A DNA stretch of 64,000 bases, taken from Akkermansia sp. Lineage in GTDB: Bacteria > Verrucomicrobiota > Verrucomicrobiia > Verrucomicrobiales > Akkermansiaceae. Location: positions 1-64,000 of the forward strand of contig JAFSEZ010000029.1 of NCBI GenBank assembly GCA_017435505.1. The letters are read 5' to 3'. Shown here one piece after another: positions 14,470 through 19,681 of this stretch. The translations under genes were made by a program, and so were the position numbers. The notes beneath the pieces were generated by a model, which did no database searches, had not been told where the DNA came from, and saw nothing but the letters and a program-made list of their open reading frames with translations. How positions within the stretch are numbered: position 1 is the first letter of the stretch; each line of letters begins with the position of its first letter.

Positions 14470-15063
14470 TCAGCTCATGTGGCGCAAGGCCCCGCGAATC
14501 AATTCATCCGTACCGGCCTGCGGATTTTCCTTGAGCAAAGCCTTGATAGCCTTACGGGATTCCGTCTGCTTGAAGCCAAGCGCAATCAGAGCCAGCTCGG
14601 CATCTGCCGCAGCCTGCGTGGTTGTACCCTCCTGCTGGGCTTCCCAGGTGGAAGCAAGACCTATCTTATCTTTCAGCTCCAGCACGATGCGCTCTGCCGT
14701 TTTCTTACCTACCCCTTTAGCGCGGGCAATAGATTGCACATCGCCGCTCACGACGGCGCTTTTGAACGATGTCACATTCATACCGCTCAGAATGGCAATG
14801 GCTGTTGCCGGGCCGATGCCGCTCACTCGTTCAATCAACAAGCGAAAAATATCTCGTTCTTCATCGGTAGCAAATCCATAGAGCACCTGCATGTTTTCGC
14901 GAATGTGCAGGTGTGTTTTCAGTGTTGCCTGTTGCCCTACCACAGGATTGATTCGATCGTAAGTAGATAAAGGCACGAGCACTTCGTAGCCTACACCACT
15001 CACATCCATCACGATGCTCTGCGGCAAAGCCTCTGCAATAGTTCCTCTCAGAAAAGCTATCAT
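14470..15063 (-). CDS. ruvA: Holliday junction branch migration protein RuvA
   Basis: A 197-residue protein with the RuvA layout: an OB-fold (1-63, starting M-I-A-F-L-R-G-T-I), tandem helix-hairpin-helix motifs (I-S-G-I-G-P-A-T-A-I-A-I-L and A-K-G-V-G-K-K-T-A-E-R-I-V), and a C-terminal domain (about 150-197) that contacts RuvB. RuvA tetramers bind Holliday junctions and recruit the RuvB motor. ruvB and ruvC are not in the window. It has a promoter directly abutting the start codon. Confidence 0.96.
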   Translation of the reverse strand: MIAFLRGTIAEALPQSIVMDVSGVGYEVLVPLSTYDRINPVVGQQATLKTHLHIRENMQVLYGFATDEERDIFRLLIERVSGIGPATAIAILSGMNVTSFKSAVVSGDVQSIARAKGVGKKTAERIVLELKDKIGLASTWEAQQEGTTTQAAADAELALIALGFKQTESRKAIKALLKENPQAGTDELIRGALRHMS

Positions 15064-15127: not shown

Positions 15128-15427
15128 TCAATCAACTTTGGGGAGATGCTGCACATGTTCTTCATTTTCAACCGCGCTGCGGCGTAAAAACGGACACCCA
15201 AGGCATTTATTGGCAGCCTCTATGCGCAGTTTGCGTTCTTGGTCGTATAGTTGTTCATAGCGTTCGGCTCGTTTCATTTCACGCCAAAGGAACATACCCA
15301 TGACAGCCGCCACAGAAGCGCCATTTTGCACGTATTCCAAAAAGGGATTGAGCTCAGTGGTCGCCATACTGACTACGGCCAAGGCATTCGCTACCACGAT
15401 TGTGCTTGTCACCATTGAATTTGTCAT
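15128..15427 (-). CDS. Small membrane protein, possibly phage holin-like
   Basis: A 99-residue protein. Residues 5-20 and about 33-47 are hydrophobic; a charged, heptad-like helix follows (about 48-72, M-K-R-A-E-R-Y-E-Q-L-Y-D-Q-E-R), then a C-L-G-C motif. The layout of one or two membrane helices plus a charged coil is like small phage holin or spanin-type proteins, but no family is certain. It lies 91 bp after the capsid-like gene in the same orientation, which supports a phage origin. ATG 15427 is preferred to GTG 15430. Confidence 0.5.
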   Translation of the reverse strand: MTNSMVTSTIVVANALAVVSMATTELNPFLEYVQNGASVAAVMGMFLWREMKRAERYEQLYDQERKLRIEAANKCLGCPFLRRSAVENEEHVQHLPKVD

Positions 15428-15441
15428 CACTACGCATGAAG

Positions 15442-15484
15442 AAGCGGCACCCCGGAGTGGGAAATGCAGGCCGGGATGCCGCTT
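15442..15484 (-). terminator. Strong hairpin between capsid-like gene and small membrane gene
   Basis: A 14-bp stem with a single mismatch (15442-15455 with 15471-15484, AAGCGGCA-C-CCCGG against CCGGG-A-TGCCGCTT) and a 15-nt loop. No T-run follows on either strand, so it may be an mRNA processing or stability element rather than a terminator. Confidence 0.5.
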
Positions 15485-15518
15485 GGGTTATTTATGCTAA
15501 TCCGGGTTACAATGATAA

Positions 15519-16433
15519 TCAGCTCTCAGTACACTGAATTTTCACAAACGCCTCTTCCTGCAAACGCGTGGCACCGCAAGCAAACTTGGCGCGAATCTGC
15601 AAGGCTTCATCCAAGTCATCTCGCACAGAGATTTTAACCTTGAAATCATCCCAAATGCCAAATTGCGCCTTGCTCTTAACCCAAGCCAAGCAGGAGCGCT
15701 CGCCCGTCTCGGCATCGAGCGGCAGCAATTCGGTGCGAATGATGCGGAATCCGAGGAACGTATCCACTTTCCCCTCTGCCAGAGCGCGAACGGTGTTGTA
15801 GTCGTAGCTGGACACCTGGGGCTCACGCAGCAGGGAATCAATCTGGCTACTGGTGCAAGCCAGCACCAATTCATCGCCATAAGCACGGCGTTCCTCGTTC
15901 CAAGCCTCCGCTTTATGCAGCATGGCCAAAGCCTTGCGCAACTTGGCCACGGTAAGATTGCTATCAACGGCGCTACCGGAATCCACATAATCACTCTCCA
16001 CGATTTGGTTCTCGCTAAAAGCAACAGGCATGGTTCCGTTTTCTCCGATATAGTTTTCGCCCAAGAAAGCATCCAGCATCACCTTGTCCATGCAGCGACC
16101 GGCTGCGGCACGCAACCCTTCTATGGTCTTGCTGACCGGCACATCGATGTTGGCCAATTTCTTGGCGTCAAACTCATCAAAGCCGACGGCCTTGGTGTAA
16201 ATGTGCGGATACATGACGCGGCGAAGCGTGGGCGCCTCCATCAGCACCGTCTGCCCCATGCGGGAGACTTTCTCCTCGAAGGCGAGCAGACCATACTGGT
16301 CAAAAGTGACCATCTTGCCGGTCAGCCCGTTTTCAACGGTCACGTACTTATCCAAGCGGGATGCCTCCTGCTGCAGGTACGAGCCCCATTTTTCCGTATA
16401 CTTAATTTGGTAGTTCTGTTCAATGTCAGCCAT
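15519..16433 (-). CDS. Phage major capsid-like protein
   Basis: A 304-residue protein starting MADIEQNYQIKYTEKWG. The pattern resembles phage major capsid proteins of the tailed-phage HK97-fold superfamily: an N-terminal helical arm (K-W-G-S-Y-L-Q-Q-E-A-S-R-L-D), a region with repeated V-G-F-D-E-F-D and I-D-V-P-V-S-K-T-I-E-G-L, a spine helix around L-R-K-A-L-A-M-L-H-K-A, and the W-D-D-F-K-V...D-D-L-D-E-A-L-Q-I-R-A-K-F-A-C-G-A-T tail. No portal, terminase or tail gene is adjacent, so it is an orphan. I cannot tell a prophage remnant from a domesticated capsid. The start at 16433 fits better than the in-frame upstream codons. Confidence 0.65.
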   Translation of the reverse strand: MADIEQNYQIKYTEKWGSYLQQEASRLDKYVTVENGLTGKMVTFDQYGLLAFEEKVSRMGQTVLMEAPTLRRVMYPHIYTKAVGFDEFDAKKLANIDVPVSKTIEGLRAAAGRCMDKVMLDAFLGENYIGENGTMPVAFSENQIVESDYVDSGSAVDSNLTVAKLRKALAMLHKAEAWNEERRAYGDELVLACTSSQIDSLLREPQVSSYDYNTVRALAEGKVDTFLGFRIIRTELLPLDAETGERSCLAWVKSKAQFGIWDDFKVKISVRDDLDEALQIRAKFACGATRLQEEAFVKIQCTES

Positions 16434-16813
16434 TGTCTGTTTTCTTTCTATGTTTGAATGTTGGTAAAGAAGCAGCAAATCGGCAGTAGATGATTACCCC
16501 ATGCGGGATCAGGCCGCTTGGCCCACGGTCGGGAAGTTGCCCTCTCACTTCTCTATTAAAAAGCAAGTGGGTAATTATTTTCCTCCGGGGCTCTTGCCGA
16601 TATGAACATAATCACAGATGCGCCATCTTGTCATCCTTTCTTCACTCGGCGCACGTGCTGCACCTACCTACCACCCCACCTAAAAAAACTGCGTAGCAGG
16701 CCGACCACTGTCGCATTTTAATCTTGACAAAAAGAATCCATTTCGGGCATCTATAGAGACAAGCGGAGCGCCCCGAAGCGCGATTCCGGGAAAATTTTCA
16801 TTTCATTTTACCC
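16434..16813. other. Intergenic region without a supported gene (380 bp)
   Basis: This divergent gap lies between the capsid-like gene and the topoisomerase gene. Open frames here are short and lack protein-like features. TTGACA occurs at 16724-16729, but the nearest -10-like sequence (TATAGA at 16752) is 22 nt away, so I do not call a promoter. No tRNA, repeat or attachment site is visible. It may contain leftover phage sequence. Confidence 0.6.
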
Positions 16814-19681
16814 ATGCCCAAGACCCTCATCATCGCAGAAAAGCCCAGCGTAGCAAGCGACCTTGCTCGCGTCCTTGGAAAGAAACTTGGTAAATTTAAG
16901 AAAGACTCATCTACAGGGAGTTACGAAAACGAAACAGCAATCATCACATCTGCCGTAGGTCATTTAGTAGAGCAGAAAAAGCCCCAAACAGAAGATGGCA
17001 AAAGCCTGCCTTGGAAGATGGAATATCTGCCGGTCATGCCCGGCACCATGGAGCTGGAACCCATCGCCAAATCTGCTGATCGGCTGCGCAAGGTATTGAA
17101 ACTGGCTCGCAGCAAAGAGGTAAAAGACTTAGTCAATGCCTGCGATGCCGGGCGAGAAGGCGAGCTGATTTTCCGCAACATCATCCGCTATGGCAAGATT
17201 CGCAAACCTTTGCGCCGCTTGTGGATGCAGAGCATGACGGATGATGCTATTTTGGAAGCATGGGATAAGCTCAAGAGCGATGCCTCCATGGCCAATTTGG
17301 CGGATGCAGCCGTGTGCCGCTCAGAATCCGACTGGTTGGTTGGGCTCAACAGCACACGCGCCCTCACTGTCCTGCAATCGGCAGGTGGCGGATTCAACAT
17401 CACCCCGACCGGGCGCGTACAAACTCCCACACTGGCTCTGCTTGCCGCCAGGCAAAAAGAGATTTTGGCTTTCGAGCCGGAAACCTATTACGAAGTACAC
17501 GCCAACTTTGCCACCGCTGCCGGTAGCTACGAAGCACGTTGGTTCGACCCGAAGTGGAAGAAGAATGAACAAGCACCCCAACGCACCAAGGAACGCATCT
17601 GGGATGCCTCAACCGCTGAAATGATTGCAGCTCGATGCAAGGGGCAACCCGCAGAGGTAAAAGAGGTACGCAAGCCTGTATCCATGCCGCCCCCCTTGTT
17701 GTTTGATTTAACCTCCCTGCAAAAGGAAGCCAGCAACCGCTTTGGGTTCTCTGCCAGCCGCACTCTTCACTTGGCCCAAGAGTGCTATGAAAAGCACAAA
17801 GTGCTCACCTACCCCCGCACAGACTCCAAGTTCCTGCCCAATGATTATCTGAAAGTTGCCACCCGCACCGTGGCTGATTTGAAGGCAGCCCTGCCGGAAT
17901 ATGCCGCCTTTGCAGAGGAGATTCTGAGCAGTGGTGGGATTCGCCCCAGTAAGCGCGTGTTCGACAGCAGCAAAGTAAGTGATCACTTCGCCATCATCCC
18001 CACCGGCAAAGTGACCAATCTGAGCGGAGATGCTGCAAAAATCTTTACCTTGGTTGTACAGCGCTTCTTGGGCGTCTTCATGCCTAATGCAGAATTTGAA
18101 GATACAGAGCGTACGACCATCATCAAAACAGCCAAGGCCACCGATTCATTCTACACCCATGGGCGCATTCAACTCAAAGCAGGCTGGCGTGCCCTCTACA
18201 GCAACCTCTCCCGTAAAAAGGACGAACTTTGCAAGGTAAACAAAGGTGAAAAAGTGACAAACACGGCGGCCGAAGCCATCACCGATCGTACCAAAGCCCC
18301 CTCTGCCTACTCGGAAGCCACTTTGCTGACAGCCATGGAAACAGCCGGCAAGTTGGTAGAGGATGAAGAACTCTCCTACGCTATGAAGGAGAGAGGATTG
18401 GGAACTCCCGCCACGAGAGCCTCCATCATCGAGGGGCTTATCACCCAAGAATATATTGCTCGTGATGGAAAAGACCTCGTAGCCACACGCCGAGGCATGG
18501 ATTTGATTGATTTGTTGAGCAAGATTGGTCTGAGCACACTTTCCAGCCCCGAACTTACGGGTGAGTGGGAGTATCGGCTCAAGCAAATGGAAGCCGGGAA
18601 ACTGGATAGAGAATCCTTCATGAAAGATATCCGCACCTATACTGCCGAGATTGTGGAATCTGTGCAAGATTACATGAAAAACGGCAAGAATCCGGATTTG
18701 GCGGAAACTTGCCCGGCCTGCGGAGAACAGGGACTCACCAGCCGACTGGATGCCGTTGCATGCCCGCATTGCCGCTTCCGCATTCGCCGCGTGCATGCCG
18801 GATTAAGCCTCACGGATGACCAAATACGAGAACTCATCAGCAACAAAGAATTGCCGGTCATGGAAGGATTCCGCTCCAAGTTCGGCAAGCCTTTCAAAGC
18901 AGGTTTGCGTCTCGTATCACCCACAACAGAAAAAGGCAACTGGAAAACGGATTTCTTCTTTGAAGACGAGAAGAAAGATTCCACCGCAACGGAGTCAGAC
19001 ACCGCTACTATCATAGGCCATGCAGCGGTTGCTAACCAAGGAGAGTTGGAAGTCCAAGAAAACAGCAAACAGTGGATGGTGCCGGATTTTACCCGTAAAA
19101 ACGGCAAAAAAGGATTCACTATGGCCAAGGTTATCCTGGGCAGAATTCTGGAGGTCAATCACCTGCACCAAGTATTGCAACAGGGAAAAACGGAACTCAT
19201 TTCCGGATTTATTTCTCAGCGCACACACAAAAAGTTCGATGCCTATCTGGTGGTGGATGAAGCTAAGGGCAATGTGGCCTTTGAATTCCCCCCCAGAGAA
19301 CCACGAAAAAAAGATGACGCAGCAAAAGCTGCGGAACGCAAGTTTACCGCAGCCGATGCCACACAGGAAGATTTGAGCAATGCCCGCCGCCATGGCATCA
19401 TCAAAGTCAAAGGCAAGGGTGAGCATGAGCTGCTTGAAACAGACAACGCATGGCATGTGGAAGGCATCGTCTACGGCAAGAGCCGCCGCCCGCTCGTTAT
19501 CCCCCACATCATGTGCGGAGTCAACCTGGAAGCTCCCATCGTAGCGCAGCTCCTCACCAAAGGAAAAACGGAACTCATCAAAAACTTCACCAGTCACAAG
19601 ACCGGTAAGAACTTTGAAGCCTACCTCACTTTTACCCCAGGCAGCGGCAAGGTGGGCTATGAATTCCCCCCCCGCAAATAA
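16814..19681 (+). CDS. topB: DNA topoisomerase III-like type IA topoisomerase
   Basis: A 955-residue type IA topoisomerase. The Toprim domain begins K-T-L-I-I-A-E-K-P-S-V-A and includes N-A-C-D-A-G-R-E-G-E-L-I (about 109-120). The active-site tyrosine is Y333 in L-T-Y-P-R-T-D-S. These motifs resemble TopB rather than TopA. A single four-cysteine zinc ribbon (C-P-A-C...C-P-H-C, about residues 636-657) follows, then two related C-terminal repeats (about 749-830 and 878-954) that share G-K-T-E-L-I and end in E-F-P-P-R. It relaxes or decatenates DNA by single-strand passage. The next gene starts directly after its stop. Confidence 0.92.
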   Translation: MPKTLIIAEKPSVASDLARVLGKKLGKFKKDSSTGSYENETAIITSAVGHLVEQKKPQTEDGKSLPWKMEYLPVMPGTMELEPIAKSADRLRKVLKLARSKEVKDLVNACDAGREGELIFRNIIRYGKIRKPLRRLWMQSMTDDAILEAWDKLKSDASMANLADAAVCRSESDWLVGLNSTRALTVLQSAGGGFNITPTGRVQTPTLALLAARQKEILAFEPETYYEVHANFATAAGSYEARWFDPKWKKNEQAPQRTKERIWDASTAEMIAARCKGQPAEVKEVRKPVSMPPPLLFDLTSLQKEASNRFGFSASRTLHLAQECYEKHKVLTYPRTDSKFLPNDYLKVATRTVADLKAALPEYAAFAEEILSSGGIRPSKRVFDSSKVSDHFAIIPTGKVTNLSGDAAKIFTLVVQRFLGVFMPNAEFEDTERTTIIKTAKATDSFYTHGRIQLKAGWRALYSNLSRKKDELCKVNKGEKVTNTAAEAITDRTKAPSAYSEATLLTAMETAGKLVEDEELSYAMKERGLGTPATRASIIEGLITQEYIARDGKDLVATRRGMDLIDLLSKIGLSTLSSPELTGEWEYRLKQMEAGKLDRESFMKDIRTYTAEIVESVQDYMKNGKNPDLAETCPACGEQGLTSRLDAVACPHCRFRIRRVHAGLSLTDDQIRELISNKELPVMEGFRSKFGKPFKAGLRLVSPTTEKGNWKTDFFFEDEKKDSTATESDTATIIGHAAVANQGELEVQENSKQWMVPDFTRKNGKKGFTMAKVILGRILEVNHLHQVLQQGKTELISGFISQRTHKKFDAYLVVDEAKGNVAFEFPPREPRKKDDAAKAAERKFTAADATQEDLSNARRHGIIKVKGKGEHELLETDNAWHVEGIVYGKSRRPLVIPHIMCGVNLEAPIVAQLLTKGKTELIKNFTSHKTGKNFEAYLTFTPGSGKVGYEFPPRK

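Follow-up and report, generated by a model that had tools for sequence, protein, structure and literature searches.

How does a gene for a phage-type major capsid protein come to stand alone among housekeeping genes of Akkermansia? The gene lies in a window of 64,000 nucleotides, the whole stretch of DNA that was analysed, where it and one small open reading frame (ORF) are flanked by ruvA (14470-15063, minus strand) and topB (16814-19681, plus strand). An earlier interpretation of the same DNA, made without database searches and called here the sequence-only reading, had described an orphan capsid-like gene among housekeeping genes. This description holds for the locus: no terminase, portal or tail genes were seen near the capsid gene of the window. 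TerL and tail genes are encoded elsewhere in the window genome. The features of the locus are listed in Table 1.

Table 1. Features of the solo capsid locus in the window
Feature	Position	Strand	Remarks
Small membrane protein, lineage-restricted, holin-like at best	15128-15430	minus	100 aa if initiated at GTG, 99 aa at the following ATG
Terminator-like hairpin after the capsid gene	15444-15479	minus	just past the capsid stop codon; TTCTTC follows
Solo major capsid protein, predicted HK97 fold	15519-16433	minus	304 aa from ATG to stop codon
Structured RNA leader of the capsid transcript	16470-16600	minus	covariation (alignment A1); model R1
Capsid promoter	16606-16633	minus	-35 TGACAA (16628-16633), -10-like TTATGT (16606-16611)
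Box of the probable regulon, GGTGCAGCACGTGCGCCG	16647-16664	minus	upstream of the capsid gene; matched before the tail-tubular B (TTB) gene and the core-TerL operon of the same genome

The proposal of a 304-residue capsid-like protein was borne out by family searches. The Pfam family PF19821 (Phage_capsid_2) matches the protein over its full length (E-value 1.3e-82), and PHROG 3437, annotated as 'major head protein', matches it at 1.7e-50. The encapsulin family was absent: Phage_capsid_2 was the sole Pfam match above the cut-off, and NCBIfam gave none. Structure prediction, which had been proposed as a check, gave an AlphaFold model with a pLDDT of 79 and a pTM of 0.75, for which an HK97-type fold is predicted. 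According to the Foldseek comparison, podophage capsids are the top matches of this model (LME-1, 1e-13; P-SCSP1u, 2.4e-13), and encapsulins rank lower.

As for the small ORF, its hydropathy profile has a clear hydrophobic stretch and a second, weaker one, and searches of Pfam, PHROG and NCBIfam gave no family match at the cut-off. The sequence-only reading had described a 99-residue holin-like protein beside the capsid; the ORF does exist on the minus strand and is holin-like at best, but it adjoins the capsid gene and ruvA in three species only (that of the window and two near relatives), and it was therefore rejected as a constant partner of the capsid. A strong imperfect hairpin claimed between the two genes, at 15442-15484, is indeed present within nearly the same bounds. 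Since it is located just after the capsid stop codon, and similar G+C-rich hairpins, read by eye, follow this codon in most relatives, it is terminator-like.

The sample comprised 76 Akkermansia species genomes, mostly drafts, and many relatives of the window genome were MAGs from the guts of ruminants and herbivores. Real prophages with related genes are present in several of the Akkermansia genomes as well; the solo and prophage classes were told apart manually, using the tabulated scores and the position. The solo capsid was found in 56 of the 76 genomes, and the reading frame was intact in every capsid copy read. The median dN/dS of the capsid was 0.17 overall, 0.14 in the window's clade and 0.033 in the A. 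muciniphila clade; the medians for TerL, portal, TTB and topB were 0.16, 0.20, 0.38 and 0.21, respectively. The capsid, TerL, portal and TTB genes are under purifying selection. The examination of conservation and dN/dS suggested by the sequence-only reading thus found a capsid gene that is intact and widely kept, rather than absent or pseudogenised in most strains. In a quick tree, the solo capsid copies of the two clades formed two supported groups, and prophage and other copies were placed outside both. Capsids of isolated phages showed an identity of about 35% or less, and viral contigs contained distant capsids only (27-30% identity).

No integrase was noted beside the solo capsid copies whose neighbours were read. 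The second capsid copy of genome G062 (L166) has a tyrosine integrase directly before it and the start of a decoration-like gene after it; this copy is possibly a small mobile capsid cassette. In G015 (L025/L175), the capsid gene is directly followed by a 149-aa phage-like gene with a weak PHROG match to a virion structural protein.

The other particle genes were searched for with the head-tail connector family PF12236 (portal) and with the TerL of a real Akkermansia prophage as a query. The PF12236 search revealed a high-scoring class that, with few exceptions, has one copy per genome, is unlinked to the capsid and is absent where the solo capsid is absent; in the window's own draft genome, this search found no portal. 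The portal locus is a small conserved operon encoding the portal, a protein of ~90 aa and a scaffold-like protein; it contains no capsid gene, and in most species a divergent tail-tubular A (TTA) gene is located there. TerL constitutes a third locus with the same distribution, being the last gene of a core1-core2-TerL operon in which core protein 2 is a giant. TTB is the fourth locus and a solo gene in most genomes read. In G022 (L227), the TTB gene adjoins TerL, unlike in the other species read.

In closed genomes, the particle loci are unlinked and lie hundreds of kb apart; for example, in G059 they are found at 463,021 (TerL), 1,787,053 (capsid), 2,207,869 (TTB) and 2,504,268 (portal). The motifs GIST, ESTHEGG, WDLG, PHD and SHxADAxR do not vary among 15 TerL proteins and that of the prophage, and the catalytic motifs of the putative ATPase and nuclease are intact. 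PHROG matches were obtained for TTB (1.7e-114), TTA (1.1e-35) and an endolysin (1.6e-46), and also for TerL and an internal virion protein. As read from their matches, the capsid, portal-scaffold, core-TerL and TTB genes are of the same podovirus type.

These four solo loci are kept or lost together. All four were found in 50 of the 76 genomes, exactly three in 10 and none in 16, and there was no genome with one or two (Fisher p-values for co-occurrence from 6e-11 to 2e-12). The ten genomes with three loci are consistent with the draft state of the assemblies. The genomes with none of the four are G008, G013, G014, G016, G020, G025, G026, G028, G090-G096 and G097; several of these 16 still carry prophages of the same podovirus type.

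Vertical inheritance was judged from gene distances, with topB as the main host marker; on this scale, correlation with topB was 0.944 for the capsid (N 47), 0.924 for TerL, 0.939 for TTB and 0.951 for the portal. Distances of the four particle genes also correlate with one another (r 0.92-0.97). The capsid gene co-diverges with its host, which argues against the satellite element that had been among the options of the sequence-only reading.

Upstream of the capsid gene, the promoter sequence TGACAA and the -10-like element are kept at the same place across species, and a structured leader of ~110-130 nt starts directly after this promoter. Covariation in alignment A1 backs the structure proposed for this leader: 47 cells were doubly changed versus 17 in shuffles, and 89% of cells were paired versus at most 55% when the pairing was slid. 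Model R1 matches the window at 16469-16608 (E-value 5e-15) and finds the leader in 42 genomes, every match being located just upstream of a solo capsid. Scans of the leader against Rfam gave nothing near a gathering score. The sole genome with two R1 matches is G071, which also has two capsid copies; this MAG contains two different capsid-plus-leader copies (L180, L181), one near-identical to that of G018, and is probably a mixed bin. A capsid leader of similar layout is found in the A. muciniphila clade (alignment A4), where model R1 does not detect it. The best non-training matches of model R2, which represents the leader of the A. muciniphila clade, were three leaders of the other clade (E-values 0.02-1.4), and these matches suggest that the leaders of the two clades are homologous.

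The separate units also have an upstream box in common. In the window genome, the capsid box agrees with the TTB box at 16 of 18 positions and the core box with the TTB box at 15 of 18. The box is positioned at about -65 to -73 at the core operon and TTB, and at about -200 to -231 at the capsid, where it lies farther upstream because of the leader. Its sequence is alike within a genome and differs between species (within versus between genomes, p = 1.3e-9). The box is clear in G001, G002, G023, G030 and G033; in G000, direct comparison shows it clearly for two of three locus pairs and the pattern for all three loci. A partial box is seen in G022 and G079, and the match is close to background level in G019, G072, G074, G082 and the A. 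muciniphila clade.

Exact copies of the 16-mer number 10 in G002, 11 in G070 and 9 in G030, and the control gave no matches. Exact copies in these three genomes also precede genes for tail-tubular A, an internal virion protein (phrog_418), an endolysin (phrog_17001) and small membrane proteins, and a ClpP gene follows the box in G070 (L276) and G002 (L292). In addition, exact copies stand before large ORFs that are RHS-like, a label given by sequence inspection, or related to these (L277, L279, L281, L283, L288, L290 and L291; L294/L295 in G000), some of them cut at contig ends. With the three-box pattern, exact copies in the window genome were found at the capsid, TTB and core-TerL loci and before two contig-end ORFs. 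When one mismatch was allowed, a copy was found before the internal virion protein gene, which makes a fourth virion gene; at two mismatches the matches were mostly due to chance, according to the control. Since the box-bearing loci carry a common upstream element, they probably form one regulon in the window's clade.

The lone capsid thus appears to be one part of a scattered, complete-looking particle; an activator, a small terminase and receptor-binding parts are not among the parts recognised. We consider it likely that the unlinked units together encode a dispersed, domesticated gene transfer agent (GTA) of the podovirus type in Akkermansia, for which the set is a strong candidate. An activator acting at the box would switch on the regulon in some cells. 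The shell would be assembled with the help of the scaffold-like protein, and TerL would pack host DNA into it via the portal; the packaged DNA would be that of the host because such widely separated genes cannot be taken up into a head as a single phage genome. The core and tail proteins would then serve for ejection, the endolysin and membrane proteins would lyse the producer cell, and the particles set free would bring DNA to relatives. Through autoregulation, antitermination or ligand sensing, the leader probably adjusts the amount of capsid to that of the other parts. A broader version of this reading is put forward only tentatively, and we doubt it more than we believe it: a genus-wide GTA without a core cluster, in which the separate units are tied by a fast-evolving box, the leader meters the capsid, and RHS-like proteins and ClpP are co-regulated, with the effect that one switch would turn on DNA transfer and lysis as well as contact or toxin functions.

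By definition, GTAs consist of Caudoviricete-derived proteins encoded by fully endogenised genes, often at multiple loci, with mostly vertical inheritance and host co-diversification; in addition, mostly random host DNA is encapsidated, their own genes are not fully packaged (head size), and the DNA is delivered to other cells (PMC9662315). In Akkermansia, Caudoviricete-derived proteins are indicated by sequence and predicted structure, and the endogenised genes occupy at least four unlinked loci in closed genomes. Vertical inheritance is indicated by correlations of 0.92-0.95 with topB, as one host marker, and by the all-or-none distribution. Incomplete packaging of the system's own genes would be expected because the loci are hundreds of kb apart. 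The Akkermansia system is accordingly named here a GTA candidate and is not filed as a proven member.

A domesticated particle that transfers no genes would be PBSX-like or a toxin-carrying killer, perhaps armed with the RHS-like proteins, with DNA packaging kept for assembly only. The RHS-like ORFs, as recognised by sequence inspection, behind several copies of the same box and the lysis genes within the regulon would suit such a particle, but TerL is constrained like a host gene and keeps its motifs, and the core proteins and TerL belong to one operon. We regard this reading as unlikely.

Very improbable, in our estimation, is a solo capsid that serves as an encapsulin-like compartment or a dominant-negative phage defence and is unrelated to the other phage genes. 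The capsid is indeed alone at its locus and encapsulins are among its structural matches, but portal, TerL and TTB are co-retained with it and the box is common to the loci. The check for a cargo gene that had been proposed saw none beside the capsid, and the settings compared across species have no common neighbour. Like encapsulins, the protein has an HK97 fold in a cellular setting; unlike them, it belongs to a different sequence family and is accompanied by packaging and tail genes. From the domesticated shell protein comparable to encapsulins that the sequence-only reading had offered, the word 'domesticated' can be retained as the best of its options, and the comparison with encapsulins cannot, on account of the family, the lack of a cargo gene and the co-retained terminase, portal and tail genes.

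The idea that several prophages have decayed and left these remnants, or that recent rearrangement has split an intact one, deserves about as little credit. Related prophages with capsids 56-62% identical to that of the window do exist in the genus, but the frames are intact, selection is purifying, the loci are retained all or none and they diverge along with the host, all of which speaks against remnants; a decayed prophage, as offered earlier, would not account for an intact capsid that is solo in 56 of 76 species genomes with a dN/dS well below 1. Our first idea, a small mobile element of leader and capsid jumping between loci, is scarcely credible and was dropped: the ruvA/topB setting is limited to the window and two close relatives and capsid neighbours vary elsewhere by species, but the neighbours of ruvA likewise change between Akkermansia species, capsid settings are common to clusters of species, and capsid divergence tracks topB (r 0.75 in the window's clade alone, 0.94 overall). 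With the ruvA setting equally unstable and divergence tracking topB, chromosome rearrangement with vertical inheritance is enough to explain the changes of setting.

Among known systems, the GTA of Rhodobacter capsulatus (RcGTA) has one main structural cluster and is siphovirus-like. Like RcGTA and other Rhodogtaviriformidae, the candidate GTA of Akkermansia has phage-derived structural genes at several chromosomal loci and vertical inheritance. Unlike in RcGTA, its capsid, portal, TerL and TTB genes are all apart, its type is podovirus-like and its host belongs to a different phylum. The genes of RcGTA are spread over five loci (PMC9662315). In habitat and type, the described system that comes nearest is FpGTA of Faecalibacterium prausnitzii, a GTA-like element of a gut bacterium that is most likely podovirus-like, occupies more than one locus and includes holin and endolysin (PMC12946183). 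FpGTA consists of two operons in a Firmicute host, whereas the Akkermansia set consists of many single units; host-DNA packaging has been observed for FpGTA (PMC12946183), and the Akkermansia system is known from genes.

Homologous capsids are also found in HTVC010P-type Pelagibacter podophages and in Akkermansia prophages of the same type. For the G060 prophage, homology extends to the TerL, portal, scaffold and tail genes, which form one cluster. Unlike the solo set, the Akkermansia prophage is a cluster surrounded by other genes, and its distribution is patchy. In the prophages of G060 (L162/L200-L201) and G061 (L164), the TerL, portal, scaffold-like, capsid, TTA, TTB and giant core genes are located in one cluster; with capsids 56-62% identical to that of the window, these prophages are useful as a clustered counterpart of the scattered genes.

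The open-licence papers searched contained no description of a GTA from Akkermansia or Verrucomicrobiota, and we know of no earlier GTA in Verrucomicrobiota. Known GTAs come from few lineages. The Faecalibacterium element has been described as the first GTA of the human gut microbiome and as one of the very few that do not come from Alphaproteobacteria (PMC12946183). With the box and closed genomes at hand, the production of particles by Akkermansia can be tested directly. A fully split layout would escape finders that are based on clusters of phage genes, and similar systems may hide elsewhere. If the GTA reading is true, Akkermansia, a much-studied gut symbiont, would have its own route for the exchange of chromosomal DNA.
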